DNA of 64,000 nucleotides, taken from positions 1,116,001 to 1,180,000 of the forward strand of contig NZ_RBLC01000001.1 in the NCBI RefSeq assembly GCF_003634455.1, read 5' to 3'. The position numbers and the translations under genes are program-made. Within the stretch, counting starts at the first letter, position 1. The number at the start of each line of letters is the position of its first letter. The DNA comes from Flavobacterium endophyticum. Its GTDB lineage: Bacteria > Bacteroidota > Bacteroidia > Flavobacteriales > Flavobacteriaceae. Below the pieces are notes generated by a model that made no database searches, was not told the DNA's origin, and saw only the letters and a list, made by a program, of their open reading frames with translations. Positions 13,768 through 64,000 of this stretch are shown one piece after another.

Positions 13768-13821
13768 TTCTTACTTCATTATATAATTTCCCTTCTAAAA
13801 ATCATTTTATTGAGCGGAAAT

Positions 13822-44774: not shown

Positions 44775-47700
44775 ATGGAAAACATTACATTTTCGCATCG
44801 GGCACGATCCCGAATGAAATGGTGGATGGCGCTGCTGTCCTTCATTGGCATGAGTCCATGGCTACATGCAAATCCGAATCCAAACACAGGCAGGGGCTCC
44901 CTCGCCTATTGTACGCCTGCTGCTACTTCAACTAGCAGTTTTATCAAAGACTTTAGTACAACGGGCGGCAGCACCAACATCAGCAACCTGAATACAGGAC
45001 AAGGTACGGGCGGCTATGCCAACCATACTACCATGACAGTCGGCCAATACGAAGGCGCCCCGGTCAGCTTTAGCGCGGTCTACAACACTGGAACCTTTGG
45101 CCTTGCCATTTGGGTCGATTGGAACAATAACGAAACCTTTGAGACTTCAGAAAGGATGTTCCAAACTTCAGCGTACAGCTCATCGCAGACCGGAACCATC
45201 ACGGTTCCTGCAGGAACGGCACAGGGCAGCTATCGCATGAGGGTGCTGGCCGATTTCAACAGCACCAACCCAAACAATCCGTGTGCTTTCTCAAGCGGAA
45301 GAGGAGAGGCAGAAGATTATACGTTTGTAGTAACTGCCCCTCCTGCCTGTCTACCTCCGACAAATCTAGCCGTAGGAAACATGACGCCTACCACAGCTCG
45401 GCTGACCTGGACGAGCACAAGAACATTGTTTGATGTAGAATACGGCCCTGCCGGATTCACGCAAGGCACAGGAACCATGACAACAGGAACAGCCAACCCG
45501 CTGAATATTTCAGGGCTTACTGCACAGACTGCCTACCAGTTCTATGTACGTACAGACTGCGGTCCTGATGGCAAGAGCGCCTGGGCAGGACCGTTCCGTT
45601 TCTTTACCGGGTATTGTACGCCTGCTGCAACTTCTACAAGCTATTTTATCAACAGCTTCACTACGACTGGAGGATTTGCCAACATTAACAATACGGGCAC
45701 GACTATAGGAACTGGGGGCTACTCCAACTATACCGCCCAAAAGGTAAGCCATTTTGAAGGCGGAACAATCAACTTTAGTGCTGCCTATAGCAGCGGTTCT
45801 GGATTTGCCGTCTGGGTAGACTGGAACAACAACATGACATTCGAGACTGGCGAAAGAATGTTCGCTACTACAGCTTATGGGGCCTCTTCAACAGGAAACT
45901 TTACCGTTCCTGCCGGGACTCCTGTCGGAAACTACCGCATGAGAATCCGTATGGATTATAACAACAACAGCCCTTCTAACCCTTGTACCTTTAACTCAGG
46001 CAACGGAGAGGCAGAAGACTACACGGTTGAAGTAGTCACTCCTCCATCCTGCCTTCCTCCAACGGAACTAGGTGTCGGAAACCTGACCTTTACAGGAGCA
46101 CAGCTCTCTTGGCTGGGCGAAGGAACCGTATTTGACGTAGAATACGGACCTGCCGGATTCACGCAAGGAACGGGAACCATGGCTTCTTCTGTAGCCAATC
46201 CTTATGACGCTACAGGGCTGACTCCGAATACATCGTACCAATTCTATGTACGCAGGATCTGCAGTGCCACAAACAAGAGCCCGTGGGCAGGTCCGTTCCG
46301 TTTCTTTACCGGATATTGTACGCCTGCTGCAACTTCTACAAGCTATTTTATCAACAGCTTCACCACGACTGGAGGATTTGCCAACATTAACAATACGGGC
46401 ACGACTATAGGAACTGGGGGCTACTCCAACTATACCGCCCAAAAGGTGAGCCACCACGAAAACGGATCGGTAAGCTTCAGCGCTGCCTATAGCAGCGGTT
46501 CTGGATTTTCGATCTGGATCGACTGGAACCGAAACATGGCTTTCGATACGGATGAAAGAGTATTCACTACTACAGCTTATGGGTCCTCTTCAACAGGAAA
46601 CTTTAACGTTCCTGCCGGAACTCCTGTCGGAAACTACCGCATGAGAATTCGTATGGATTATAACAACAGCAGCCCTTCTGATGCTTGTACCTTTAACTCA
46701 GGCAATGGGGAAGCGGAAGACTATACTTTTGAGGTAGTTACTCCTCCTACTTGCATGCCTCCAACAGAACTAGGAGCCGGCAACGTAACCTTTACGACAG
46801 CACAGTTTTCTTGGCTGGGCGAAGGAACCGTGTTTGACGTAGAATACGGCCCTGCCGGATTCACGCAAGGTACAGGAACCATGGCTTCCTCTGTAGCCAA
46901 TCCTTATGATGCCACAGGACTGACTGCTGATACATCGTACCAATTTTATGTGCGCAGGGTCTGCAGTGCCACAGACAAAAGCCCGTGGGCAGGTCCATTC
47001 CGTTTCTATACGGGTCCTTGCCGTTTTGCAGCGACTTCTACAAGCTACTTTATCAGAGACTTTACTACGACCGGAGGATTCCTGAACATCAGCAATACTG
47101 CTACAGGCATCGGAACCGGAGGCTATTCTAACTTTGCTGCCATGAGGGTACAGCAGGCTGTAGGCGGCACAATCAACTTCAGCGCTGCCTACGTCGGCAA
47201 TTCCGGATTTGCCATCTGGGTAGACTGGAACAAGAACATGGTATTTGATACCGACGAAAGAGTATTCAATACGACTGCCTATGGTGTGGCAGCAACCGGA
47301 AGCTTTGCGGTTCCAGCCGGAACTGCCTTGGGCAGCTACCGCATGAGAATCATGCTGGACTACAACAGTACGAGTCCGACTACGCCTTGCGCGCCAAGCT
47401 CTGGCAACGGAGAAGCAGAAGACTATACGGTTGAAGTAGTGACGCCTCCGTCTTGCCTGCCTCCGACCAATCTAGCAGTAGGAAACATGACGCCTACAGC
47501 AGCACAATTGACTTGGACAAGCACAGGAACGTTGTTTGACGTAGAATACGGCCCTGCCGGATTCACGCCAGGTACTGGAACCATGACAACAGGAACAGCC
47601 AATCCTTTGAACATTTCAGGACTTACGGCAGAGACCGCGTACCAGTTCTATGTACGTAGAGACTGCGGTACCGACGGCAAGAGCGCCTGGGCAGGACCGT

Positions 47701-49868
47701 TCCGTTTCTTTACCGGATACTGCACGCCTGCTGCAACTTCTACAAGCTATTTTATCAGCAGCTTCACCACTACGGGCGGATCTGCAAACATCAGCAATAC
47801 CGGCACGACCATCGGAACCGGAGGCTACTCTAACTTTACGGCCATGAAAGTGCAGCAATACGAAGGCGCTTCTGTCGGCTTCAGCGCTGCCTATAGCAGC
47901 GGCTCTGGATTTGCAATCTGGGTAGACTGGAACAACAACATGGTTTTTGATACTAACGAAAGAGTATTCAGTACGACAGCCTACGGTGCTGCTGCAACTG
48001 GAAGCATTACCGTTCCGGCTACGACTCCTGTAGGAAACTATAGGATGAGAATCCGTATGGACTACAACAACACCAGCCCGTCTGATGCCTGCGGGTTTAA
48101 CTCAGGCAACGGAGAAGCGGAAGACTATACCTTTGAGGTAGTTACTCCTCCTGCATGTCCTGCACCGACAGGCGGAGCAGCCGGAAACCTTACTTTTACG
48201 ACGGCACAGCTGACATGGGTAAGCAGCGGAACGTCGTTCGACGTAGAATACGGCCCTGCCGGATTCACGCAAGGCACGGGAACTATGGCAACTGCTGTAG
48301 CCAATCCTTATGATGTCACAGGACTTACTTCTGATACCGCTTACCAGTTCTACGTACGCAGGGCCTGCAGTACCACAGACAAGAGCACTTGGGCAGGACC
48401 GTTCCGTTTCTATACCGGATACTGTCTTCCTGCTGCCACGGGAACTTCCAATTACATCAAGGATTTTTCTACTACGGGAGGGTATACCAACATCAGCAAC
48501 CTGAATACGGGACAAGGTGCGGGAGGCTATGCCAACCATACGAGCATGGCAGTCAGCCAGCACGAAGGTGCACCAGTCAATTTCAGCGCAGTCTATAATG
48601 GCGGAACCTTTGGCCTTGCCATCTGGGTCGACTGGAACCGAAACATGGTGTTTGAGACTTCAGAAAGGATGTTCCAAACTACGGCGTACAGCTCATCGCA
48701 GATCGGAACCATTACCGTTCCTTCAGGAACGCCAGTGGGCAGCTACCGCATGAGGGTGCTGGCCGATTTTAACCTCACTACCCCAAACAATCCGTGCGGC
48801 TTCAATACTGGAAACGGAGAGGTAGAAGACTATACTTTTCAGGTAGCGACACCTCCGTCTTGCCTGCCGCCTGCCGCATTAGCCGCAAGCGCAACGTCTA
48901 CAACAGCACAGCTGTCATGGACCAGCAACGGAACGTCGTTTGACGTAGAATATGGCCCTAGAGGATTTACGCAAGGCACAGGAACAATGGCAACTGCTCT
49001 AACACAGCCGCAGCATGGCATTTCTGGACTTACTTCCAATACAGCGTACCAGTTCTACGTACGCAGAAACTGCGGTGCCGGAGACCTAAGTGCTTGGGCT
49101 GGACCGTTCTCTTTCACGACAGCTTGCGGAGCACAGACCGTTCCTTACTTGCTTGACTTTAACGAGGTAACAATTCCTGCATTGCCAGTATGTACGTCTA
49201 TCCAAAATGCGGGAACTGGAAATAACTGGAAAACCGACAACGTAAACGGATGGGGCTTTGCTTCTAAACTTTTGAACTATAGCTACAATTCTTCAAACCC
49301 GGCTAATGCTTGGTTCTATACCAACGGAATCCAATTAGAAGCAGGAACAAACTATACGCTGAAATTCCAGTACGGAAACAGCGGCAATACAAATTATGTA
49401 GAAAGACTAAAAGTCAACATTGCTGCTTCTGCGGATTATAATGCGATGACAAGAAACATCGTAGACTATCCGGCCATCACAAACAACACGCCGCTAGAAT
49501 CGTCTACTACCTTCACGGTAGAAACAAGCGGTGTGTATTATCTAGGATTCAACGCCTACTCTATCACAGACAGGGCTCAGATTTATGTAGATAATATTGC
49601 GGTTGACGTAGCGCTTTCTAATCCAGATTTTGAAACGACAGCTTTCAAAGCGTATCCGAACCCGGTAAAAGACCTGCTGCATCTTTCGTACAGCCAGGAG
49701 ATTACGGAGATTGCGGTGTTCAACATGGTAGGACAGCAGGTACTCGCTACATCGATACGCGATAGCAAAGGCCAGATAGACCTATCGGCATTGCCATCGG
49801 GCACCTATGTGGTAAAAGCGAGAACAGCTGATAGCAGCATGAAGACGATAAAAGTCATCAAGCAATAA
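44775..49868 (+). CDS. giant GEVED / fibronectin-III type IX-secreted protein
   Basis: A 1697-residue surface or secreted protein. After a rather polar leader and a signal-like segment (WWMALLSFIGMSPWLHA, about 16-32) come six units of GEVED plus fibronectin-III. GEVED is recognised by AIWVDWNNN, then GSYRMRVL, then GEAEDYTF. Fibronectin-III is recognised by CLPPTNLAVGNMTP and FDVEYGPAGFTQGTGTM. Units repeat every 702 bp (705 for the first). A beta-sandwich domain (about 1450-1610) and a type IX sorting tail follow (AFKAYPNPVKDLLHL ... LPSGTYVVKA). GEVED domains occur on adhesins and secreted hydrolases, but no catalytic domain is seen here. G+C is visibly higher than in the core genes. Confidence 0.92.
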   Translation: MENITFSHRARSRMKWWMALLSFIGMSPWLHANPNPNTGRGSLAYCTPAATSTSSFIKDFSTTGGSTNISNLNTGQGTGGYANHTTMTVGQYEGAPVSFSAVYNTGTFGLAIWVDWNNNETFETSERMFQTSAYSSSQTGTITVPAGTAQGSYRMRVLADFNSTNPNNPCAFSSGRGEAEDYTFVVTAPPACLPPTNLAVGNMTPTTARLTWTSTRTLFDVEYGPAGFTQGTGTMTTGTANPLNISGLTAQTAYQFYVRTDCGPDGKSAWAGPFRFFTGYCTPAATSTSYFINSFTTTGGFANINNTGTTIGTGGYSNYTAQKVSHFEGGTINFSAAYSSGSGFAVWVDWNNNMTFETGERMFATTAYGASSTGNFTVPAGTPVGNYRMRIRMDYNNNSPSNPCTFNSGNGEAEDYTVEVVTPPSCLPPTELGVGNLTFTGAQLSWLGEGTVFDVEYGPAGFTQGTGTMASSVANPYDATGLTPNTSYQFYVRRICSATNKSPWAGPFRFFTGYCTPAATSTSYFINSFTTTGGFANINNTGTTIGTGGYSNYTAQKVSHHENGSVSFSAAYSSGSGFSIWIDWNRNMAFDTDERVFTTTAYGSSSTGNFNVPAGTPVGNYRMRIRMDYNNSSPSDACTFNSGNGEAEDYTFEVVTPPTCMPPTELGAGNVTFTTAQFSWLGEGTVFDVEYGPAGFTQGTGTMASSVANPYDATGLTADTSYQFYVRRVCSATDKSPWAGPFRFYTGPCRFAATSTSYFIRDFTTTGGFLNISNTATGIGTGGYSNFAAMRVQQAVGGTINFSAAYVGNSGFAIWVDWNKNMVFDTDERVFNTTAYGVAATGSFAVPAGTALGSYRMRIMLDYNSTSPTTPCAPSSGNGEAEDYTVEVVTPPSCLPPTNLAVGNMTPTAAQLTWTSTGTLFDVEYGPAGFTPGTGTMTTGTANPLNISGLTAETAYQFYVRRDCGTDGKSAWAGPFRFFTGYCTPAATSTSYFISSFTTTGGSANISNTGTTIGTGGYSNFTAMKVQQYEGASVGFSAAYSSGSGFAIWVDWNNNMVFDTNERVFSTTAYGAAATGSITVPATTPVGNYRMRIRMDYNNTSPSDACGFNSGNGEAEDYTFEVVTPPACPAPTGGAAGNLTFTTAQLTWVSSGTSFDVEYGPAGFTQGTGTMATAVANPYDVTGLTSDTAYQFYVRRACSTTDKSTWAGPFRFYTGYCLPAATGTSNYIKDFSTTGGYTNISNLNTGQGAGGYANHTSMAVSQHEGAPVNFSAVYNGGTFGLAIWVDWNRNMVFETSERMFQTTAYSSSQIGTITVPSGTPVGSYRMRVLADFNLTTPNNPCGFNTGNGEVEDYTFQVATPPSCLPPAALAASATSTTAQLSWTSNGTSFDVEYGPRGFTQGTGTMATALTQPQHGISGLTSNTAYQFYVRRNCGAGDLSAWAGPFSFTTACGAQTVPYLLDFNEVTIPALPVCTSIQNAGTGNNWKTDNVNGWGFASKLLNYSYNSSNPANAWFYTNGIQLEAGTNYTLKFQYGNSGNTNYVERLKVNIAASADYNAMTRNIVDYPAITNNTPLESSTTFTVETSGVYYLGFNAYSITDRAQIYVDNIAVDVALSNPDFETTAFKAYPNPVKDLLHLSYSQEITEIAVFNMVGQQVLATSIRDSKGQIDLSALPSGTYVVKARTADSSMKTIKVIKQ

Positions 49869-52498: not shown

Positions 52499-52825
52499 TT
52501 AGGTCTGCAGCTGCCTAAACGGCAAGAATCTTTTCTTCGCTGTGTCCCTGCTTTCCTTATACGGACAGCTTATGTTCTTATTGCGACTCTTGAAGTTCTT
52601 ATTGGCACTCCTCAAGTTCTTATAGGCTCTGCTCATGTTCTTATATGCACTCCTCAAGTTCTTATAGGCTCTGCTCATGTTCTTATACGCACTCCTCAAG
52701 TTCTTATAGGCTCTGCTCATGTTCTTATACGCACTCCTCAAGTTCTTATAGGCTCTGCTCATGTTCTTATACGCACTCCTCAAGTTCTTATAGGCACTGC
52801 TCATGTTCTTATACGCACTCCTCAA
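52499..52825 (-). CDS. possible heptad-repeat protein encoded by a minisatellite
   Basis: An open frame of 108 residues made of heptads AYKNLRS and AYKNMSR repeated about ten times, then a basic, irregular C-terminus (SCPYKESRDTAKKRF). A 7-residue period with hydrophobic Tyr and Leu/Met positions could form a coiled coil, but no signal, family or promoter is seen. The frame may simply follow from the 21-bp DNA repeat, since the opposite strand is open too. Treat it as doubtful. Confidence 0.35.
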   Translation of the reverse strand: MRSAYKNMSSAYKNLRSAYKNMSRAYKNLRSAYKNMSRAYKNLRSAYKNMSRAYKNLRSAYKNMSRAYKNLRSANKNFKSRNKNISCPYKESRDTAKKRFLPFRQLQT

Positions 52826-52840
52826 GTTCTTATACGCACT
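52580..52840. repeat. 21/42-bp tandem repeat (minisatellite)
   Basis: Alternating 21-bp half-units TGTTCTTATACGCACTCCTCA minus one base and AGTTCTTATAGGCTCTGCTC, giving a 42-bp higher-order period repeated about five to six times, with decayed units at the left end. The array lies directly after element copy 3 and 120 bases ahead of the gene at 52958. Array length is likely to vary between strains. Confidence 0.85.
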
Positions 52841-53949: not shown

Positions 53950-54432
53950 CTAGGGCACTCTTGCTAAAACCGAGATTTCTTTATCTAAAATGCCGTCATT
54001 ATTATAATCGCGGTCGTCATTTTCTATGATTCGAAGCCTGTCTGCCGTCACCGATTGCAGGCGCCAAGATTCTACAACAGTACCATTGCGGCTAAAAGCA
54101 ATGATTTTGGTGCCGGCATCATACGAATAGGTACCGGTTGTTTCCTGTCTTATGATGCAGTCTTGATCTTCATCACTAGCATCATTTTCATAAAACACAA
54201 AATGAAAGGTTTGGTCTGCTGCCATTTCAAACCGATTCTCTGCCGAGCATCCTGTTATAATTTCTGTCAAAATAACGGTAGTATCGCTGCCCGATACTGC
54301 CTCGGCAGTGGTATACTGCCACATTCCGACAACACTGCCGCTTTCAATTGCTTTGGCATTGTCATCGTCTTTGTTACAGGAAACAATAGCCAATGGCAGC
54401 ACTACTAAGCACCATACAGATCTTTTTTTCAT
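53950..54432 (-). CDS. lipocalin-like lipoprotein
   Basis: A 160-residue lipoprotein with lipobox AIVSC at residues 15-19. The mature part has the pattern of small Bacteroidota lipocalin-like proteins: GMWQYTTAEAV at the first strand, a mid-protein TGTYSYDAGTKIIAF, and SWRLQSVTADRLRI near the end. It probably forms a beta-barrel that may bind a hydrophobic ligand in the periplasm. The tail contains an Asp-rich segment (NDDRDYNNDGILDKE) like a calcium loop. A broken copy of its C-terminus follows directly. Confidence 0.82.
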   Translation of the reverse strand: MKKRSVWCLVVLPLAIVSCNKDDDNAKAIESGSVVGMWQYTTAEAVSGSDTTVILTEIITGCSAENRFEMAADQTFHFVFYENDASDEDQDCIIRQETTGTYSYDAGTKIIAFSRNGTVVESWRLQSVTADRLRIIENDDRDYNNDGILDKEISVLARVP

Positions 54433-54493: not shown

Positions 54494-54871
54494 TTATCGG
54501 AAAGGATACTCTTCTAAAAAACAAGTAACTTCTTCAATAAAATCTTTTTTTTCGCACCTCCGTATCCGTATCCTTGTCCTTTTCCCGTCTTTAGTAAACA
54601 CACACAGCCTATAAGACCGCAAATCATGTGCTGAATAGAGAAGGCAATAGGCTGCTGCACAAGAGCCCGTAACATAAAGTGAATCGGCTCTCAAGCAATA
54701 TGCAAGTAGCGGACCAAGCGACAGCAATAGGACGGCACGGATGATACCGTGATAGGGAATATTCTTTCTAGACACAAAAATCCGATCGATATTCGCAATA
54801 TCAAATTCATGCACAGCCCCTTTATAATTGAGGGTCATTTTTGACTCGACTATGTTGATGTATTTTGACAT
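54494..54871 (-). CDS. small membrane protein of unknown function
   Basis: A 125-residue protein with two adjacent hydrophobic segments (about 44-80, AVLLLSLGPLLAYCL and AAAYCLLYSAHDL). They are flanked by short beta strands before (MTLNYKGAVHEFDIANIDRI) and after (RLCVFTKDGKRTRIRI). This resembles PH-like small membrane proteins (DUF6232 type), but I am not certain. The start is set at 54871, because the 32 residues upstream to 54967 look non-coding. It may be the last gene of the minus-strand surface operon. Confidence 0.6.
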   Translation of the reverse strand: MSKYINIVESKMTLNYKGAVHEFDIANIDRIFVSRKNIPYHGIIRAVLLLSLGPLLAYCLRADSLYVTGSCAAAYCLLYSAHDLRSYRLCVFTKDGKRTRIRIRRCEKKDFIEEVTCFLEEYPFR

Positions 54872-54983
54872 TGACGTTTCGTATAGAATTAGTTTTAGTA
54901 TTCGTATTTCCTCCACAAAACAATCTTTTATATCCTCATCCTCTTTCTCATTATATCCTGCTTTCAACTTTCAGCCCTACACC

Positions 54984-55973
54984 TTAATTCAGCCTTTTGG
55001 CCGTAAAATAAAAATAATAGTTAGAGGCATCTCCGGTGGCATGCCAAGTACAATTGTACCACTCGCCATTGGTAAAGGTGACCATAACATTTATATATTC
55101 GGAGTCATAGTTAATTGAATTTGTTCCAAGATCATCATCTCCGTCAATATAATAACTATAATAACCGGGATTAATAGTTGTACCAGCCCCGTTAACATAT
55201 GCATTGATAGTTGAAAAAGCGGAAATGTTATAAGTAATAGCTGTACCAGTAGTATTGAAAAATTTAGGCGCCGTATCACCATTAAAATCAGCTTCAATAA
55301 AATCCATTCTTAAACCATTAATTACAATAAATTTTGCCTGTTCTGTTGCATTAGACAGCTCATAAGCCGAACGTCTATTGGTAGTGGTTATATTGCCCGC
55401 GTTTTTCCCATTCATCATATTTCTTGATCCTCCATTTGCTGTAAAGGTGGCAGCAGGTACAACTGCCCTAAACGACTTAATGCCATTCACCTCAAAATTA
55501 TTATTGTTGGTGATAACCGTAGATTGCAGAAAAACGTCCCATAAAGCAGCCGATATTATATTATTTGTGTTTTTAACTACTACTACCGACTGCCCCGGTT
55601 TGATAACAATAGTATTTGCAATAGAAGCAGCGTTGGTTTGTATCAGCTGTGTGCTGTTTCCTTTGATGGTCACATCAAATGCCGAAGTATTTTTGATGCG
55701 GTACACCCTTCCGTAAAATGCATCTTTAGCGGCATCTGCCACCACGGCATTGGGCAGCGTAAGGGTAATTGCCGCTGTATTTCCCAGTACATTTACAAAT
55801 TGATCGGTATTGGTGAGGGCAGCATCTGCTGCTATAACTTTATAGCTCCCTGCATAAGAACCGTTTACGGTAAGGCTGCTGTTAGGATTTTTGGTGTTGA
55901 TGCCCGTGTTTTGGGCATACAGGCTACCAACAGCCAACGCAGCTAATAGTAGGGTAACGAGTATTTTTTTCAT
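54984..55973 (-). CDS. secreted protein, tail-fibre-like N-terminus, paralogue 1
   Basis: A 329-residue exported protein (signal peptide 1-20, ending SLYAQ). It begins with the NTGINTKNPNSSLTVNGSYA segment, also found in Bacteroidota fibre-like and adhesin-like proteins. A beta-rich middle follows (ITLTLPNAVVADAAKDAFYG, then TIKGNSTQLIQ). The C-terminal domain contains many aromatic residues (NPGYYSYYIDGDDD, then WYNCTWHATGDASNYYFYF). It has no type IX sorting tail. It is a close paralogue of the next gene upstream (56015-57007), with long stretches identical in both halves. Its function is unknown, perhaps a secreted fibre tip or lectin-like domain. Confidence 0.82.
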   Translation of the reverse strand: MKKILVTLLLAALAVGSLYAQNTGINTKNPNSSLTVNGSYAGSYKVIAADAALTNTDQFVNVLGNTAAITLTLPNAVVADAAKDAFYGRVYRIKNTSAFDVTIKGNSTQLIQTNAASIANTIVIKPGQSVVVVKNTNNIISAALWDVFLQSTVITNNNNFEVNGIKSFRAVVPAATFTANGGSRNMMNGKNAGNITTTNRRSAYELSNATEQAKFIVINGLRMDFIEADFNGDTAPKFFNTTGTAITYNISAFSTINAYVNGAGTTINPGYYSYYIDGDDDLGTNSINYDSEYINVMVTFTNGEWYNCTWHATGDASNYYFYFTAKRLN

Positions 55974-56014
55974 TCCCTGATTTTTAAATTATTAATTACT
56001 ACTTTGTGCACTTC

Positions 56015-57007
56015 CTAATTCAGCCTTTGGGCTGTAAAATAAAAATAATAGTTAGTGGCATCTCTGGTAGCGTGCCAAGTACAGTTGTACCACTCGCCAT
56101 TGGTAAAGGTTAGCATAGCGTTCACATATTCTATATCTCCTTGGTCTACTGTCGAAAAATCATCATTCCCATCAACATTAAAACTATAATAACCGGGAGC
56201 AATAGTTGTATTAGCCCCGTTAACATATCTATCGCCAGTTGAAAGAGAGGAAATATTATAGGTTATTGCTCCGGCAGTAGTATTGAAAAGTTTGGGAGAT
56301 GTAGATGGGTTACCCCTCCAGCTTTGAAGAAAATCCATTCTTAAACCATTAATTACAATAAATTTTGCTTGTTCTGCTGCAGTAGACAGCTCATAAGCCG
56401 AACGTCTATTGGAATTGATTGTATTGTTCACATTTTTTCCATTCATCATTTTGTTTGATGCACTATAGTCTGTAAAGGTGGAAGCAGGTACAACTGCCTT
56501 AAACGACTTAATGGCATGCACCTCAAAATTATTATTGTTGGTGATGGCAGTAGACTGCAGAAAAACATCCCATAAGGCAACTGCTACTGTATTATTTGTG
56601 TTTTTAACAACCATTACCGATAGTCCCGGTTTAAGAACAAAAGTATTTACAATGGAAGCAGCATCGATTTGCAGCAACTGTGTGCCGTTTCCTTTGATGG
56701 TCACATCAAATGCCGAAGTATTTTTGATGTGATACACCCTTCCGTAAAATGCATCTTTAGCGGCATCTGCCACCACGGCATTGGGCAGCGTAAGGGTAAC
56801 TGCCGCTGCACTGCCCAGTACATTTACAAATTGATCGGTATTGGTGAGGGTAGCATCTGCGGCTATAGTTTTGTAGCTCCCGGCATAAGAACCGTTTACG
56901 GTAAGACTGCTGTTAGGATTTTTGGTGTTAATCCCCGTGTTCTGGGCCTGCAGTTTACCAACGACGAACGTACCTAATAATAGGGTAACGAGTATTTTTT
57001 TCATCAT
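56015..57007 (-). CDS. secreted protein, tail-fibre-like N-terminus, paralogue 2
   Basis: A 330-residue paralogue of the preceding entry, with the same signal peptide style, the same NTGINTKNPNSSLTVNGSYA opening and the same C-terminal end (WYNCTWHATRDATNYYFYF). Differences cluster around residues 165-265 (for example YSASNKMMNGKNVNNTINS and SWRGNPSTSPKL), which suggests a variable binding face on a constant frame. It lies 41 bases from paralogue 1 in the same operon. Confidence 0.82.
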   Translation of the reverse strand: MMKKILVTLLLGTFVVGKLQAQNTGINTKNPNSSLTVNGSYAGSYKTIAADATLTNTDQFVNVLGSAAAVTLTLPNAVVADAAKDAFYGRVYHIKNTSAFDVTIKGNGTQLLQIDAASIVNTFVLKPGLSVMVVKNTNNTVAVALWDVFLQSTAITNNNNFEVHAIKSFKAVVPASTFTDYSASNKMMNGKNVNNTINSNRRSAYELSTAAEQAKFIVINGLRMDFLQSWRGNPSTSPKLFNTTAGAITYNISSLSTGDRYVNGANTTIAPGYYSFNVDGNDDFSTVDQGDIEYVNAMLTFTNGEWYNCTWHATRDATNYYFYFTAQRLN

Positions 57008-57099
57008 TCTAATTTTTTAATTATGATATTCGTATAAAGCAATCTTATCCCTCTCTACTTTTCACTTTAGATTTGCACTTCCAACCTTGTTTGTCCTCT

Positions 57100-57900
57100 T
57101 TATTGTATAGGAAGAGCATAAAAATAATTTTCGGGACTATTGGTGTTATAGCTAAAAATAGTAGTGCTCCATTTTTGAAAAACTAAATATATAGTAACAC
57201 CAGCTGGTGCAGTTACCTCAATTACTGAGCTTCCTGATATGAAGCCTGTTCCAGTAACATCCGCAGGCAAGGCTTTGGCCGCTTTAAGTAATATCCCTGC
57301 ATAAGTGGTGCTAGTGCCAGCTGGCCCCAAGTGCGTAAAACCTGCTTGTGCTACACTGGCAGTATTTGATGACAAATAGCAATGCTGCCAAATATCGGTA
57401 GTGATATTATTAAAGGTCATTCCAGCATTTACTGCCCACTTCCCTGGGGCAAGCGTTATAGACACGCCAGAATAGACAATTGTTCCTGAACCAGCGTTAG
57501 CATTTACAGTGGCTGGAACGGGCGGAAATGCACCTAATATGGTAGGGCGGAATGCCGGGACTGCAGCCCAGGCACCTACTCCATTGGCATCACTGGTAAG
57601 CACATAGCCATTGGCTTGTGTACCATCCATAATTTTAATCGCCGCTCCGGCAGTTCCATTATTTATCACCAGTTTTGCGTTTGGCACAACAGTACCAATG
57701 CCTACATTGCCTGCTTGAGTCACTACAAAATCATTAGCCTGCTGTGGCGCAGTCGGATCGCCGCTGGCATTATTATCCCTAGCCCCATCCACATGCAAGG
57801 TGCCTTTCGGGTTTTTGGTATTTACTCCCGATTGTTGCGCATAAGCGGAAGCAGATAGGGATAAAATAAGTACTGCGGCTATAATTTTATTCTGTTTCAT
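57100..57900 (-). CDS. secreted tail-fibre-like protein, paralogue 3
   Basis: A 266-residue exported protein (signal 1-21, ending AYAQ). It has the fibre-type motif GNVGIGTVVPNAKLVINNGT after a QSGVNTKNPKGTLHVDGARD opening. The C-terminal beta domain contains APGKWAVNAGMTFNN, HCYLSSN and FISGSSVIEVTAP, then NYFYALPIQ. Motifs of the NVGIGT type are common just before trimerising, receptor-binding or chaperone domains in phage tail fibres and Bacteroidota surface proteins. It is paralogous to 57981-58766. Confidence 0.82.
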   Translation of the reverse strand: MKQNKIIAAVLILSLSASAYAQQSGVNTKNPKGTLHVDGARDNNASGDPTAPQQANDFVVTQAGNVGIGTVVPNAKLVINNGTAGAAIKIMDGTQANGYVLTSDANGVGAWAAVPAFRPTILGAFPPVPATVNANAGSGTIVYSGVSITLAPGKWAVNAGMTFNNITTDIWQHCYLSSNTASVAQAGFTHLGPAGTSTTYAGILLKAAKALPADVTGTGFISGSSVIEVTAPAGVTIYLVFQKWSTTIFSYNTNSPENYFYALPIQ

Positions 57901-57980
57901 GTTAATTAATTATCATATTGTATCCTCTGTACTATGCAACGGTATTCATCTTCGTGTCTATTTGAAAACTAATCCCTTCA

Positions 57981-58766
57981 TCAATCTACTGGTTTTGCAA
58001 AAAAATAATTTTCGAGATAGGTTTTTGGATTAAACTTGTATGCGCCAACGGGCTGATTCTGCAACAATAAATAAATAACAACCGATGGCGCTGTCACCTC
58101 TATCAGTGTACTACCGGTAACAAAGCCAAATTGCATTAATGGCGTCGGGTTAGTGTCCATAAGCCCTTGTACCAATACTCCGCCATAGCTTGTTTGTACG
58201 CCAGCAGGTCCCAAAAAATTAAAACCAGTCTGCTGAAGCGCATTAGTAGCTGACGACAGGTAACAGCGTTGAAAGAGGGTTGAATTTCCATTTGTAAAAG
58301 TAACACCTGCATGTACCATCCACTTTCCCCTACTCAGCGTAATCGATATCTTTGAATCTATTGGAGCCATACCACCATTAGGCACTATGAGGCCTGGATC
58401 GGTTGTTGGAAAAGTTCCATTAACCAAGGGCTTCACTACCGAAGGGCTGATCCATCTTGCAAGACCAGTGGCATCGGTAGTTAAAATACTGCCCGCCCTT
58501 TCTCCACCATCTTTAATTTGAATTTTTCCCCTAAGGTCCAACTTATGGCTAGGGCTTAAGGTGCCAATACCTACATTACCTGCATTGGTTACTATAAAAT
58601 CGTTAGCTTGCTGTGCCGCATCAGGATCGCCGCTAGCATTATTATCTTTACCGGCATCAACATGCAAAGGGCTTTTAGGGTTTTTAGTATTCACCCCGGT
58701 GTTTTGAGCATAAACACTACCAGTGGCCAGTGCGCCTAATAGTATTGTAACGAGCCTATTTTTCAT
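57981..58766 (-). CDS. secreted tail-fibre-like protein, paralogue 4
   Basis: A 261-residue exported protein (signal 1-20, ending SVYAQ) with the same layout as paralogue 3: NTGVNTKNPKSPLHVDAGKD, NAGNVGIGTLSPSHKLDLRG, then SRGKWMVHAGVTFTNG, RCYLSSATN and NYFFAKPVD at the end. The two share both ends while internal loops differ. It is transcribed right after the giant repeat protein, with a 56-base gap. Confidence 0.82.
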   Translation of the reverse strand: MKNRLVTILLGALATGSVYAQNTGVNTKNPKSPLHVDAGKDNNASGDPDAAQQANDFIVTNAGNVGIGTLSPSHKLDLRGKIQIKDGGERAGSILTTDATGLARWISPSVVKPLVNGTFPTTDPGLIVPNGGMAPIDSKISITLSRGKWMVHAGVTFTNGNSTLFQRCYLSSATNALQQTGFNFLGPAGVQTSYGGVLVQGLMDTNPTPLMQFGFVTGSTLIEVTAPSVVIYLLLQNQPVGAYKFNPKTYLENYFFAKPVD

Positions 58767-58822
58767 CCCTTTGCTTTTTTAATTGTTGGTATGGATATCG
58801 GGTAGCAAGACCTTTCTGTTTT

Positions 58823-61800
58823 TTACTTCCCGCTTTTGTTGGTGTCTTTTTTCTGGTTTTCCAGCATGATTTTTTCCAATTTTTCTAACCTGGCCTTGGT
58901 GGCTTCGGCATCTTCTTTCAGGGCTTTTATTTCGGCCTGCTGTTGGTCTATCAGCTTTTGCTGCTCAATAGTATGCAGGTATAGCTCTTCTACTTTTTCA
59001 AGCATTTGTATGCTCAGTTCGGAGATATTGAATACGTAATCGCCTTTTTCGTTTTTGCGGAGGCCTTTGATACTGGTTACGCCAGGCAAATGTTTGTTCT
59101 TGTTGATAAATGCTTCTACTTCTTTCAGCGATTTAAAAGAATAATCGCTTTTCAGTTCAGAGAAGCCATTAAAATAATCTTCAAACACATAATCGGGAAA
59201 GACAGAGTTGACCGTTTCAATGCCCCCGTTAACAGCAAGCAAGGTATTGGGATTGGCGGCGGTGGCGGGGCTGCCCAGCATCATATTGGTGGTACCTATG
59301 CCTACTTTACCAGCACTGTTAACATGGATTCTTGTAGTAGCAGCCGTTTGCAATTGTAAATTTCCTGTTGATGAACTACCAGTACCTAGGACAAGCCCAG
59401 TGGTATTAGCTGCAAGTACACCTGTCGTTACATAAGCATCGCCATTATAACGCTGTCCTATATTTACCAAACTATTGGCAGCCTGTAATTGTATAACCGC
59501 ATCGCCAGTTGATGTTCCGTGATACAAGGTATTGTTTGCGCCGCTGTGATTAATTTTTGTTTCTCTGGTATTTGGCCCAAATGATTTAAAATTAAGAGTC
59601 TTCCCTGTCATAGTTACAACCCTGGTGTTAGAGGCATCGGTAGCAAGTGTACCATCTGTGGTATAAATGTTATTTGCTGGCAATGCCGATTGGTCTATCC
59701 ATGTTGGTGCATTGCTGCCATTTGAAGTCAACACCTGATTTGCCAATGGCGAATTGGCCATTTGCGTAGTAGTTACCGCACCGTTTTGTATCTTATTAGT
59801 TGTTACCGCATTATCTTGTATCTGGTTTGTTCCTACCGCATTGGCTTGTATATGGGTATTGCCAATTCCGCCAGGTGCCACGCTTACAGTTGTTGCCACC
59901 AAAACAGCATTAGCAACGCTTCCGGCGGCTCCCCCGTTTAGCGCTATAGAAGCATCAGCGGTAAGGTTTTTACCAATCCCCGTAGCCGCAGTGTTTACCG
60001 AAAGCGTACCATCGGCAGCTATATTAAGGCCTGCCCCCGCTTTTACCGCACCTGGAATAACAGTGGTAGCGGTAGGTACGCTAACGGTGTATGCTGTATT
60101 TCCAATAGGACTTGGTGTTGTTGGTGTTACGCTAACATTTGTACCCGCTACAACTGAACTTGTTGTTTGGTTGGCGGTAATGGCTGGTGCTAAGTTTAAT
60201 GGTGCACTAGGCTGCCCATTTACAGTGCTTATCAATTGGTTGCTTGCATTTAACGACAGCCCATTGCTGTTGATGATGTTAACAGCTGTTCCCGTTACAC
60301 TGTTTACGGTAGTGGTTAGGCTGTTATTGTTAGAAAGATTAGACACCGAAATAGCAGGTACCAAAGTAGATTGGTTGACCCAGGTTGGTGCACCTGCTCC
60401 ATTAGTGGTTAATACTTGGTTGATGCCGGCAGTGGCCATTTTAGCCGGAGTTACCGCACCGTTCTTGATGTTGGCTGTTACGTTAGCAAGGGTTGCTCCC
60501 AAACCACCAGTTATGTCAAGGTCAGCTGAAGTAAAGTCCTTCCCTATACCCGAAGTGCCGGTGTTTACCGAAAGTGTACCATCAGTAGCTACATTAAGAC
60601 CTGCTCCTGCTTTTACCGCACCTGCAATAGCAGTGGTAGCGGTAGGTACGTTAACGGTGTATGCGGTATTGTTGCTGCCTCCTGGTGTATTTGCTTGCAC
60701 CGTAGTGTTAGTTCCCGCTACAACTGAACTTGTTTTTTCGAGGGAAGAAATATCTTTCCATGAAAGCGTGCTACTTGCCATTCCATTGGTAACCAATACC
60801 TGGTTATCCGAACCACCATCTCTTGGAAAAACATAATTGGATGTAGGTGTGCCAGCAGGATTATAAAATGCAAAATTAACGCCAGCTCCAGGGGTTATTT
60901 CTATATGAGAACTTCCTGTTGTTGGATCATAACTACTCATCGTTAAACTGCTCATGCCTAAGGCATCATTGTTGTATGAGCCAATACCATTCCAATAACC
61001 AGAAGTGTTTGAGCGCAAAGCGAAGCCACTTGGATCAATATATGCCCTTGCATCAATAACAGGACTTTTACTAAGTTTCACCTCAAAATTGTCCTTAGTT
61101 AAAAGGAGCTTAGAAAATTCGGTGGCCAAACCTAGTAGCTGATTATTAGCTACAGACATCAGCATATTACCATCAGTATCTTTACTATCAAAATGGTTAT
61201 AAAAACCTGGGCTACCTACACCTAAAACTTTCATATCTCCTTTTACCTCAAACTTTTTGGTTGATTCCCCATCAGTAGCTGTAAAGCCTACGGCTACGTT
61301 GCCCTGTTGGTAGATTTTATCGGTATTATGGTCAGCTATAGCCGTTGTTCCTTGTACATTCCAAGGCTCAGTAGGTGGTGAAAGAGTAGGAATCCTAAAC
61401 GTTACTGGTGTTCCGGCTTCGTTAGTATATGTATAGTCATTACCAATTTGAGTAAGGGTGGTTACTGTTTCGTTCCTCGCTATGATCTGTGCCATGTCGA
61501 GGGTAGTGGTATTCCCATCCTCATCCTTGTAGGTCAGCTCCTTGGTGGCTGTATCGTAGCCCAGTATGGTCAGCGTCTCGTTAGCCTGCACAAGTTCCTC
61601 GATATTGATCGTCTGCGTCGTGCCCGTGGCGTCTACATAGGTAAAGTTCGTGCCGTTATAGGACACGTTCCCGCCTACCGTAGTATTCGTAAGGTTTTCG
61701 ATAAGCTGGTTCAGCACCTCCGTGTTGCTGATGATCTCCTCAAAGTTGTTCATCACGTCGGCAGGAACATTGATGGTCACCTCGGCGCCAGCCTCGTTTT

Positions 61801-64000
61801 TATAGGTATACGTGCCATCGCCATTGTTGGCAAGGGTCGTAACCGTCTCGTTCGCCTGCACAAGCTCCTCGAGGTTGATCGTCTGCGTCGTGCCCGTGGC
61901 GTCTACATAGGTGAAGTTCGTGCCGTTATAGGACACGTTCCCGCCTACGGTAGTATTCGTAAGGTTTTCGATAAGCTGGTTCAATACTTCCGTGTTGCTG
62001 ATGATCTGCTCAAAGTTGTTCATCACATCGGCAGGAACATTGATGGTCACCTCGGCGCCAGCCTCGTTTTTATAGGTATACGTGCCGTCGCCATTGTTGG
62101 CAAGGGTCGTAACCGTCTCGTTGCCCGTAACAAGCTGCGCCATGTCAAGGATAGTGGTATTCCCGTCCTCGTCCTTGTAGGTCAGCTTCTTGGTAGCCGA
62201 ATCGTAGCCCAGTATGGTCAGCGTCTCGTTCGCGTCGATGATGTTCTTGATCGTCGTGGACACGCTGGTGTCGCCCATGATCGTAGTGAAGTTTTCGATA
62301 ACATCGGCAGGAACGTCGATAAGCGTCGTGGTACCGTCCTCAGAGGTGTAGGTGTATTTTCCATCGCCGTCGCTCACAAGGGTCGTAACCGTCTCGTTCG
62401 CCTGCACAAGCTCCTCGAGGTTGATCGTCTGCGTCGTGCCCGTGGCGTCTACATAGGTGAAGTTCGTGCCGTTATAGGACACGTTCCCGCCTACCATAGT
62501 ATTCGTAAGATTTTCGATAAGCTGGTTCAGCACTTCCGTGTTGTTGATGATCTGCTCGAAGTTGTTCATCACATCGGCAGGAACATTGATGGTCACCACG
62601 GCGCCGGCCTCGTTCTTATAGGTATACGTTCCGTCGCCGTTGTTGGTCAAGGTAGTAACCGTCTCGTTGCCGCGCACGATTTCCTGTATGTTGATGGTCT
62701 GCGTCGTGCCCGTGGCATCTACGTAGGTAAAGTTCGTGCCGTTGTAGGACACGTTTCCGCCTACAGTAGTATTCGTAAGGTTTTCGATAAGCTGGTTTAG
62801 CACTTCCGTATTGTTGATGATCTCCTCAAAATTGTTCATCACATCGGCAGGAACATTGATGGTCACCTCGGCGCCGGCCTCGTTTTTATAGGTATACGTG
62901 CCGTCGCCATTGTTGGCAAGGGTCGTAACCGTCTCGTTGCCTGCAACAAGCTGCGCCATGTCAAGGATAGTGGTATTCCCGTCCTCGTCTTTGTAGGTCA
63001 GCTTTTTGGTAGCCGCATCGTAGCCCAGTATGGTCAGCGTCTCGTTGGCGTCGATGATGTTTTTTATCGTGGTGGACACGCTGGTGTCGCCCATGATCGT
63101 AGTAAAGTTGCTTATGACATCGGCAGGCACGTCGATCAGCGTTGTTGTCCCGTCCTCGGAGGTATAGGTATATTTTCCACTGCCATTACTTACAAGAGTA
63201 GTCACCGTCTCGTTCGCCTGCACGAGGTCTTCGATGTTGATGGTCTGCGTCGTGCCGGTAGCATCGACATAAGTGAAGCTCGTGCCGTTATAGGACACGT
63301 TTCCGCCTACCGTAGTATTCGTAAGGTTTTCGATAAGCTGGTTCAGCACTTCCGTGTTGCTGATGATCTCCTCAAAGTTGTTCATCACATCGGCAGGAAC
63401 ATTAATCGTCACCTCCGCACCGGCCTCGTTTTTATAGGTATACGTACCGTCGCCATTGTTGGCAAGGGTCGTAACCGTCTCGTTGCCCGCAACAAGCTGA
63501 GCCATGTCTAGGGTAGTGGTATTCCCGTCCTCGTCCTTGTAGGTCAGCTTCTTGGTAACCGAATCATAGCCCAGTATGGTCAACGTCTCGTTCGCGTCGA
63601 TGATGTTTTTTATCGTCGTGGACACACTGGTGTCGCCCATGATCGCAGTAAAGTTTTCGATAACATCGGCAGGAACGTCGATAAGCGTCGTGGTACCGTC
63701 CTCAGAAGTATAGGTGTATTTTCCATCGCCGTCGCTCACAAGTGTGGTAACCGTCTCGTTTGCCTGCACAAGTTCCTCGAAGTTGATCGTCTGCGTCGTG
63801 CCGGTAGCATCGACATAGGTAAAGTTCGTGCCGTTATAGGACACGTTGCCGCCTACCGTAGTATTCGTAAGGTTTTCGATAAGCTGGTTCAGCACTTCCG
63901 TGTTGTTGATGATCTCCTCAAAGTTGTTCATCACATCGACAGGAACATTGATCGTCACCTCGGCGCCGGCCTCGTTTTTATAGGTATACGTGCCGTCGCC
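58823..64000 (-). CDS. giant repeat fibre protein (5' end outside the window)
   Basis: At least 1725 residues; the frame stays open to the right edge, so the N-terminus is missing. It starts with alternating tandem units A (90 aa; motif GDGTYTYKNEAGAEVTINVP) and B (92 aa; motif DGKYTYTSEDGTTTLIDVP) at about 61450-64000. Beta-rich stalk segments rich in Thr/Asn/Val follow, with PNSxTSSVVAGTN-like motifs. The C-terminus carries the NKHLPGVTS motif, then a coiled coil (EQQKLIDQQQAEIKALKE) and a Lys-rich end. This matches the intramolecular C-terminus of Bacteroidota tail-fibre-like surface proteins. It has no type IX tail. G+C in the repeats is far above that of the core genes. Confidence 0.88.
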   Translation of the reverse strand, partial: GDGTYTYKNEAGAEVTINVPVDVMNNFEEIINNTEVLNQLIENLTNTTVGGNVSYNGTNFTYVDATGTTQTINFEELVQANETVTTLVSDGDGKYTYTSEDGTTTLIDVPADVIENFTAIMGDTSVSTTIKNIIDANETLTILGYDSVTKKLTYKDEDGNTTTLDMAQLVAGNETVTTLANNGDGTYTYKNEAGAEVTINVPADVMNNFEEIISNTEVLNQLIENLTNTTVGGNVSYNGTSFTYVDATGTTQTINIEDLVQANETVTTLVSNGSGKYTYTSEDGTTTLIDVPADVISNFTTIMGDTSVSTTIKNIIDANETLTILGYDAATKKLTYKDEDGNTTILDMAQLVAGNETVTTLANNGDGTYTYKNEAGAEVTINVPADVMNNFEEIINNTEVLNQLIENLTNTTVGGNVSYNGTNFTYVDATGTTQTINIQEIVRGNETVTTLTNNGDGTYTYKNEAGAVVTINVPADVMNNFEQIINNTEVLNQLIENLTNTMVGGNVSYNGTNFTYVDATGTTQTINLEELVQANETVTTLVSDGDGKYTYTSEDGTTTLIDVPADVIENFTTIMGDTSVSTTIKNIIDANETLTILGYDSATKKLTYKDEDGNTTILDMAQLVTGNETVTTLANNGDGTYTYKNEAGAEVTINVPADVMNNFEQIISNTEVLNQLIENLTNTTVGGNVSYNGTNFTYVDATGTTQTINLEELVQANETVTTLANNGDGTYTYKNEAGAEVTINVPADVMNNFEEIISNTEVLNQLIENLTNTTVGGNVSYNGTNFTYVDATGTTQTINIEELVQANETLTILGYDTATKELTYKDEDGNTTTLDMAQIIARNETVTTLTQIGNDYTYTNEAGTPVTFRIPTLSPPTEPWNVQGTTAIADHNTDKIYQQGNVAVGFTATDGESTKKFEVKGDMKVLGVGSPGFYNHFDSKDTDGNMLMSVANNQLLGLATEFSKLLLTKDNFEVKLSKSPVIDARAYIDPSGFALRSNTSGYWNGIGSYNNDALGMSSLTMSSYDPTTGSSHIEITPGAGVNFAFYNPAGTPTSNYVFPRDGGSDNQVLVTNGMASSTLSWKDISSLEKTSSVVAGTNTTVQANTPGGSNNTAYTVNVPTATTAIAGAVKAGAGLNVATDGTLSVNTGTSGIGKDFTSADLDITGGLGATLANVTANIKNGAVTPAKMATAGINQVLTTNGAGAPTWVNQSTLVPAISVSNLSNNNSLTTTVNSVTGTAVNIINSNGLSLNASNQLISTVNGQPSAPLNLAPAITANQTTSSVVAGTNVSVTPTTPSPIGNTAYTVSVPTATTVIPGAVKAGAGLNIAADGTLSVNTAATGIGKNLTADASIALNGGAAGSVANAVLVATTVSVAPGGIGNTHIQANAVGTNQIQDNAVTTNKIQNGAVTTTQMANSPLANQVLTSNGSNAPTWIDQSALPANNIYTTDGTLATDASNTRVVTMTGKTLNFKSFGPNTRETKINHSGANNTLYHGTSTGDAVIQLQAANSLVNIGQRYNGDAYVTTGVLAANTTGLVLGTGSSSTGNLQLQTAATTRIHVNSAGKVGIGTTNMMLGSPATAANPNTLLAVNGGIETVNSVFPDYVFEDYFNGFSELKSDYSFKSLKEVEAFINKNKHLPGVTSIKGLRKNEKGDYVFNISELSIQMLEKVEELYLHTIEQQKLIDQQQAEIKALKEDAEATKARLEKLEKIMLENQKKDTNKSGK
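61450..64000. repeat. 270/276-bp in-frame tandem repeat array
   Basis: The landmark CATCACATCGGCAGGAAC recurs at 61751, 62021, 62567, 62837, 63383 and 63929, giving steps of 270, 546, 270, 546 and 546. Units A (270 bp) and B (276 bp) therefore alternate as A, B, A, B, A, A, B, A, A from the right edge leftward. Near-identical units imply recent expansion. Confidence 0.85.

Follow-up and report, generated by a model that had tools for sequence, protein, structure and literature searches.

A candidate MAT-like surface-fibre cassette beside a type IX type-B gene trio in Flavobacterium endophyticum

Mosaic adhesive trimer (MAT) fibres have been described in Bdellovibrio bacteriovorus, and passages of that report (PMC10769870) leave their partner on the cell surface open. 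Complexes of PorE, PorP and a type-B substrate of the type IX secretion system have also been published (PMC9143113 and PMC12618676, each used here to the extent of selected passages). Among these, PG1035-PorP-PorE and Fjoh_3952-3951-3950 were proposed to be static complexes anchored to the cell wall, a tie through the type-B protein, PorP and PorE being reported for PG1035 and proposed for Fjoh_3952; five such operons were reported in F. johnsoniae, and the function of PG1035 is called unknown in PMC12618676. Here, we describe a locus of Flavobacterium endophyticum in which genes resembling both systems stand on one strand: a giant repeat-shaft protein and four small fibre-like proteins (s1 to s4), together with an upstream trio of type-B, PorP/SprF and PorE-like genes. 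The window, that is, the whole stretch of DNA analysed, comprises 64,000 nucleotides (contig NZ_RBLC01000001.1, positions 1,116,001 to 1,180,000), and all coordinates below are positions within it.

The fibre proteins may resemble MAT fibres, as presented in those passages of PMC10769870, in having a signal peptide, capping-loop beta-helix modules and variable C-terminal tips, TNF-like ones included, and s1 and s2 (pair 1) match the MAT protein Bd2133 by sequence. They differ in that the small proteins, at 261-330 residues, have no room for the N-terminal domain of about 130 residues given for MATs, that the giant ends in another domain, that the genes are linked to a type IX type-B trio and that the phylum is another one. 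The trio consists of the same three gene types as those of PG1035 and Fjoh_3952, whereas adjoining MAT-like or giant tail-less fibres are seen only on the window side, as far as the passages of PMC9143113 and PMC12618676 go. The gliding adhesin SprB, with SprF, likewise combines a large surface adhesin with a PorP-family partner (PMC9143113), but SprB itself has a type-B tail; none was found on the window giant, and the tail is on a separate protein of 432 residues. Both the trio and the MAT fibres are known, and what appears to be new is that giant tail-less fibres of a MAT-like kind are linked to the trio; no paper on a link between MAT-like or giant fibres and a type-B trio was found among the matches listed in searches of open-licence PMC papers. 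In our judgement the chances are about even that the locus encodes MAT-like surface fibres as a cassette, together with a type IX type-B anchor dedicated to them.

Fibre genes next to a type IX type-B trio

The initial annotation described an operon of a giant fibre followed by four small fibre-like proteins in two paralogous pairs. Five open reading frames (ORFs) indeed lie on the minus strand from 54984 to past 64000, with gaps between consecutive genes, from the giant to s4, of 56, 80, 92 and 41 bases. Proteins s1 (57981..58766, 261 residues) and s2 (57100..57900, 266 residues) form pair 1 and are 46% identical, and s3 (56015..57007, 330 residues) and s4 (54984..55973, 329 residues) form pair 2 and are 76% identical, which bears out the pairing. 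The common strand and the close spacing stood, but not the beginning of the run, which starts three genes earlier, in the order CHU_C - PorP/SprF - PorE-like - giant shaft - s1 - s2 - s3 - s4. The five fibre genes are the second part of a longer same-strand run. Both the trio and the opening of the giant lie past the window end and so were out of view of the initial annotation.

In the upstream part, the 432-residue protein matched CHU_C with 94.2 bits (cut-off 27) and TIGR04131 with 44.2 bits (cut-off 35), and the next protein matched PorP_SprF with 304 bits (cut-off 22.3). With a sorting domain above the cut-off and a PorP/SprF gene downstream, the former is classed as a type-B substrate of the type IX system. 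The third gene lies 104 bases before the giant on the same strand, the other two being farther upstream; its 646-residue product carries PD40, CarboxypepD_reg and OmpA domains, that is, the domain set of PorE, and is called PorE-like because it is below the NCBIfam PorE cut-off.

The giant, the C-terminal part of which occupies 58823..64000 on the minus strand, runs on past the window end. Its likely start, 1,254 bases beyond that end on the same contig, reads MKRLLL...YSQVGIGTSTPNNSSQLEV / MKRLLLTAIAMLGVSAAYSQVGIGTSTPNNSSQLEV, giving 2143 residues in all with one masked stretch read as X. The protein has a conserved N-terminal head of about 110 residues, a 270-base tandem repeat at 61574-64000 and an end domain in its last 135 residues (58826..59230), which hold an HLPG-type module and a likely coiled coil. 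This end domain is 68% identical to that of a Pedobacter shaft and 56-62% identical to those of seven shafts in six genomes of the same genus; no match was found in the shafts of loci L154 and L099, two of the nine loci compared. The best PDB match of the C-terminal 392 residues had only E=0.37. A giant with an endosialidase chaperone (S74) was considered and rejected, as Peptidase_S74 was not among its Pfam matches up to E=1, and matches to DUF903, PB1, SicP and other Pfam and NCBIfam models were taken as repeat-driven artefacts because most of them had no stretch passing alone and they were mutually unrelated.

A search of 299 genomes of the same genus with the 432-residue protein gave matches at E<=1e-10 in 268 genomes, many of them to the sorting domain only. 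Full-length relatives occurred in at least 66 genomes besides its own, among the matches listed, and 60 loci, one per genome, were fetched from these 66. A giant-type head was present in the same-strand run upstream of the type-B gene in 46 of the 60 loci when searched with a profile partly built from these loci; the head of the window giant alone, used as the query, detected heads in 19 of the 24 loci that were not truncated and in 21 of the 36 that were. With this query, 55 of 169 upstream genes matched, compared with 10 of 363 genes elsewhere in the loci (odds ratio 17, p=4e-21). At the level of 14 genomes, 39 of 40 listed type-B relatives had a same-strand head within 15 kb, and 34 of 40 within 10 kb. 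Conversely, 59 of 148 typed heads (the head set being the best 150 of 163 head matches) lay within 10 kb of a listed type-B relative, compared with a mean of 1.5 and a maximum of 7 in 2000 random placements.

Fibres and their partners come in matched classes in these loci. A fibre ending in xMNIVFxVK was found in 24 loci, 22 of which also had a neighbour ending in (T/S)NPM, and a protein of about 800 residues with WAIxYxQ was found in eight loci, seven of which had a fibre bearing the end domain of the giant; 19 of the 60 loci had none of these four ends. Proteins by the CHU_C gene had the (T/S)NPM-like C-terminal end in 23 of the 60 loci (for example, L125, L139 and L156), 22 of them with the MNIVFxVK fibre, and this end is a possible docking or sorting signal. 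Two further arrangements were noted: in L143 (genome G355) the CHU_C-PorP-PorE set occurs twice in tandem, followed by a third CHU_C gene, and in L105 (genome G251) CHU_C-PorP-PorE is preceded by five small paralogues, only distantly related to pair 1, and by a shaft of collagen-like GxY type that is truncated at the contig start.

The shared opening and the predicted folds

According to the initial annotation, all five proteins have signal peptides and open with NTG(V/I)NTKNP, without type IX tails, and the shared opening suggests one assembly or anchoring route. Starts resembling signal peptides were recognized by eye in all four small proteins, and the lack of tails was confirmed, as no type A or type B sorting domain was detected on the giant or the small proteins with Pfam and NCBIfam up to E=1. 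The opening itself held for s1, s3 and s4; s2 has QSGVNTKNP, and the giant has another form, SQVGIGTSTP. In the 3.75-Mb genome, the DNA pattern for N-x-G-(V/I/M)-N-T-K-N-P had three matches, all at this locus (54984, 56015 and 57981), and the reversed pattern had none; no count was taken from a wider degenerate DNA pattern, which was too strict to match the giant. Likeness between the pairs covered about 20-40 residues by BLAST (s1-s3, E=1e-9; s1-s4, E=2e-8 or 2e-12 depending on direction; s2-s3, E=5e-4) and up to 71 residues in a hidden Markov model search. The first 165 residues of the giant matched the small proteins by BLAST at best with E=0.016, away from any opening, and a head match over the s2 opening had E=0.084.

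It was also suggested that within each pair the ends are conserved and the middle diverges. This describes pair 2, with identities in 30-residue windows of 73-93% up to residue 180, 50-70% over 181-300 and 90% in 301-330, but not pair 1, in which residues 31-60 alone stand out (73%, all others 29-53%). The proportion of nonsynonymous differences (pN) exceeded that of synonymous differences (pS) in two of eleven 30-codon windows of pair 2 (61-90, 0.05 vs 0.04; 181-210, 0.21 vs 0.13), too few sites to claim positive selection; silent sites of pair 1 were saturated, with pN<pS throughout.

The pair-1 profile matched Bd2133 with E=6.7e-13 over profile positions 46-126 (best single stretch, 7e-7), in three stretches holding loops such as VGIGATAPTAKL and VGINTAAPLQKL. 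Chains annotated as 'Cell wall surface anchor family protein', which we take to be from the same study, were matched with E=2.5e-5 to 0.096. As judged by these alignments, pair 1 holds a module related to the capping-loop beta-helix of the Bdellovibrio MAT fibres, a feature of the MAT superfamily. It is nevertheless termed MAT-like rather than MAT because only about 40 residues separate the signal peptide of s1 from its second capping loop. The opening TG(V/I)NTKNPxxxL fits the pattern of the aligned loops; for capping loops, passages of PMC10769870 print the consensus V-G-G/N-pi-X-X-P-X-X-X-L. A strict form of the pattern occurred twice in s1, as TGVNTKNPKSPL (58665..58700, motif likeness only) and VGIGTLSPSHKL (58539..58574, inside the part that aligns with Bd2133), and a single time in s2 and in each protein of pair 2 (s3 and s4), and was absent from the giant; as controls, it matched 23 times in 10,000 shuffles of the five proteins and not at all in 28 other ORFs of the window. 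Since trimeric beta-helix fibres have a capping loop that looks much like the shared opening, the opening may mark trimerisation, as a trimer-fold motif, rather than being an operon-specific anchor tag. Together with the different form in the giant, this means that the single assembly or anchoring route read from the opening was not upheld.

An AlphaFold2 monomer model of s1 from 31 sequences had a mean predicted local distance difference test score (pLDDT) of 86.6 and a predicted template modelling score of 0.62. Residues 109-261 (of which 111-261 correspond to 57984..58436) were predicted to form a jelly roll like those of TNF/C1q-type proteins, the lectins BC2L-C and PLTL, and fibre tips. 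With this model, Foldseek placed Bd2133 first, followed by phage spikes, collagen X, C1q and TNF types, and VIA gave Z of 9.5-8.8 for EDA-A1, Pgp3, PLTL and BC2L-C. Thus, pair 1 is predicted to end in a TNF/C1q-like jelly roll. This fold would be shared with Bacillus BclA/F-BclA, C1q and the lectins BC2L-C and PLTL, which differ in organism and stalk and were not among the PDB sequence matches up to E=1.

Relatives of the two pairs and extent of the run

The pair-1 profile identified 15 named loci in Pedobacter, Moheibacter, Myroides, Chryseobacterium, Epilithonimonas and Empedobacter, which, together with the window and genome G355, make 17 distinct loci. L100 and L101 duplicate the records L186 and L185, and the count leaves out L104 (genome G369) and L105, the pair-1 matches of which are partial or distant. 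Nine of the 17 loci have three pair-1 genes, two have two and five have one, and in the remaining one the domain is fused into a protein of 907 residues. A giant-type shaft was present in the fetched stretch in three loci (the window, L176 and L103). In L176, from Pedobacter chitinilyticus, a shaft, two pair-1 genes, a 429-residue CHU_C protein, PorP and a PorE-like gene follow each other in a row on one strand; one shaft ORF carries the repeat of the giant and the other its end domain. Genome G355 has a shaft, a protein of about 800 residues and three pair-1 genes. Matches to pair 1 in 37 of 199 genomes of the family and 85 of 299 of the genus were not counted as relatives, most of them being a common VGIGT middle module. 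A side case is L179 (Moheibacter sediminis), which has a row of small head-type proteins, eight beyond its two pair-1 matches, with the giant and the trio absent from the fetched stretch.

In the tree, s1 pairs with the first P. chitinilyticus gene (win_1/PchA_1, 100/100) and s2 with the second (win_2/PchA_2, 100/98). The window genes cluster with eight copies from Pedobacter (10 rows, 100/98), a hint that the cassette was transferred between families. Three-gene arrays of Myroides and G355 group by position (position 1 with only 90/92, positions 2 and 3 starred), as do two Pedobacter arrays. Among the three arrays of Empedobacter, such grouping holds for the first genes (97/89) and, at positions 2 and 3, between two of the arrays. 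Array members mostly keep their order and identity between species.

Pair 2 had no match in the scan of the named genomes, and its matches in 19 of 299 genus genomes were discarded, being mostly the generic opening and in one case a PorP signal peptide. One genome of 199 in the family (L043/L099) has the C-terminal domain of pair 2 (residues 163-330; 56018..56521 in s3) as a fusion at the end of a similar repeat shaft, the L099 shaft being one of the two that lack the end domain of the giant. This shaft stands just before a CHU_C gene and a PorE-like gene, the latter split into two frames in L099 (genome G086), and PorP was not detected beside it. Because of this fusion, the pair-2 end domain can serve as a tip module.

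Downstream, the run extends past s4 through two further minus-strand ORFs of uncertain operon membership, one at 54494..54967, 16 bases 3' of s4, with a DUF6232 match below the cut-off, and one at 53950..54432, lipoprotein-like with a Lipocalin_4 match. It reaches a terminator-like hairpin at 53705-53675 (minus strand, 13 pairs, T-rich tail), which may end the transcript; terminator-like sites of any strength numbered 8 in the region vs 5.2 expected. On the minus strand of the last 12 kb of the window, TTG-N17-23-TAnnTTTG had no match, and TTG-N16-24-TAnnTTT and TAnnTTTG alone had matches but none in the gaps of the five genes. Sites resembling sigma-70 promoters were at chance level (16 vs 14.4 expected), one at 57960-57931 inside the s1-s2 gap and another beginning at 57004, and no promoter pattern matched upstream of the CHU_C gene. 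The scan neither proves nor refutes an operon, and a single transcript over the whole run is putative.

Elsewhere in the window, two large fn3/GEVED proteins (35624-39802 and 44775-49868) differ from the fibre proteins in having a type IX tail, which is of type A (Por_Secre_tail). A 21/42-base tandem repeat at 52574-52840 (12.7 copies of 21 bases) lies in ORFs on both strands, with SAYKN repeats on the minus strand, and at 11392-19317 a bacterial alpha-2-macroglobulin adjoins a transglycosylase/transpeptidase with a BiPBP_C domain, an ordinary pair.

Readings of the locus

In the cassette that we propose, the giant and the small proteins would be exported by Sec, and each of them would trimerise with itself through capping-loop beta-helices and carry its own, different C-terminal binding tip. 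The type-B protein would cross by the type IX system and be held by PorP, and the PorE-like protein, binding peptidoglycan, would tie it to the cell wall, so that it could act as a surface element or socket to which the fibres are exported or attached. Array members would be distinct subunits, which might either form short fibres of their own that bind different ligands or be the chains of a single mixed trimer.

A number of points weigh against this cassette. As to the anchor, neither the giant nor the small proteins showed a signal for export or anchoring, and both the contact between trio and fibres and the passage of tail-less fibres through the outer membrane are putative. The PorE-like protein reached 357 of the 600 bits set for PorE and scored higher with the CHU_0125 OmpA-like model (456 of 620). 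PorP stood beside CHU_C in 47 of the 60 loci and PorE in 41, contig ends counting as misses; the trio is 5' of the fibre in the window but 3' of it in the 46 loci with a head. As many as 89 of the 148 heads were more than 10 kb from any listed type-B relative; in nine genomes with full type-B listing, 26 of 46 heads were near one and 20 were not, and two other heads of the own genome, on other contigs, were not near one. The enrichment may be increased by a tendency of surface genes to cluster in general. In L176, the shaft was read as two overlapping ORFs around masked stretches, and the CHU_C protein shares the domain but has no detectable relation to that of the window at E<=1e-8. As to the fibres, the head of the giant had no PDB sequence match, the printed MAT consensus is one residue shorter than the pair-1 and Bd2133 loops (in the passages of PMC10769870), and the shared opening itself is outside the stretch aligned with Bd2133. 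Foldseek TM-scores were low (0.25-0.34 by query), Z near 9 is barely over the stated background of 7-8, and the intertwined trimer of pair 1 is putative, the model covering a monomer. For pair 2, the model from two sequences was unusable (pLDDT 33), and the two-sequence profile had no PDB match. Finally, 14 of the 17 pair-1 loci had no giant-type shaft in the fetched stretch, some of these stretches stopping at contig ends.

The last point bears directly on the proposal of the initial annotation, which we regard as unlikely, that the shared opening lets the small proteins dock on the giant, so that one long fibre would carry them as alternative tips or as accessory subunits. That they are fibre-like partners in a linked set was supported by the single strand and close spacing, by the same type of shaft followed by two pair-1 genes in Pedobacter and by the set in G355. 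A giant-type shaft in only three of the 17 loci argues against obligatory accessory subunits. The pair-2 domain as a fused shaft end speaks for alternative tips; this role is weakened by the arrays, whose members for the most part retain their order and identity across species and so do not look interchangeable, and the opening through which docking would occur has another form in the giant and looks like a generic capping loop.

It is also doubtful that the small proteins are independent short adhesins or lectins that merely share a transcript with the fibre and the trio and act alone, perhaps after release. Arrays with neither giant nor trio in the fetched stretch, found in Pedobacter, Empedobacter and Myroides, would fit this, as would the TNF-like fold, which is used by the trimeric lectins BC2L-C and PLTL among the structure matches, but two pair-1 genes in kept order stand beside the same shaft type and a trio in two distant genera. 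A remnant of a phage or tailocin tail-fibre module is highly improbable in spite of weak PHROG tail-fibre matches of pair 1 (E=0.0016 to 0.025) and phage spikes among the structure matches, as neither pair's profile had a relative in IMG/VR viral contigs (in scans starting from short conserved peptides), s1 had none in phage records, the starts resemble signal peptides and type IX genes adjoin.

The cassette with a dedicated anchor could be extended further: the static type IX trio might be a general outer-membrane socket for tail-less MAT-like fibres, and the arrays might be mixed C1q-tipped trimers of order-conserved chains. We put this forward tentatively and consider it rather improbable. 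If true, the socket would assign a role to type-B proteins whose function is unknown, PG1035 among them, and would provide MAT-like fibres with a surface element. The recurring linkage of trio and fibre makes the anchoring question testable in a Flavobacterium grown in the laboratory and indicates that Bacteroidota have a large repertoire of modular adhesins, and the recurring pairing suggests a way in which fibres of this kind could be kept on the cell surface.

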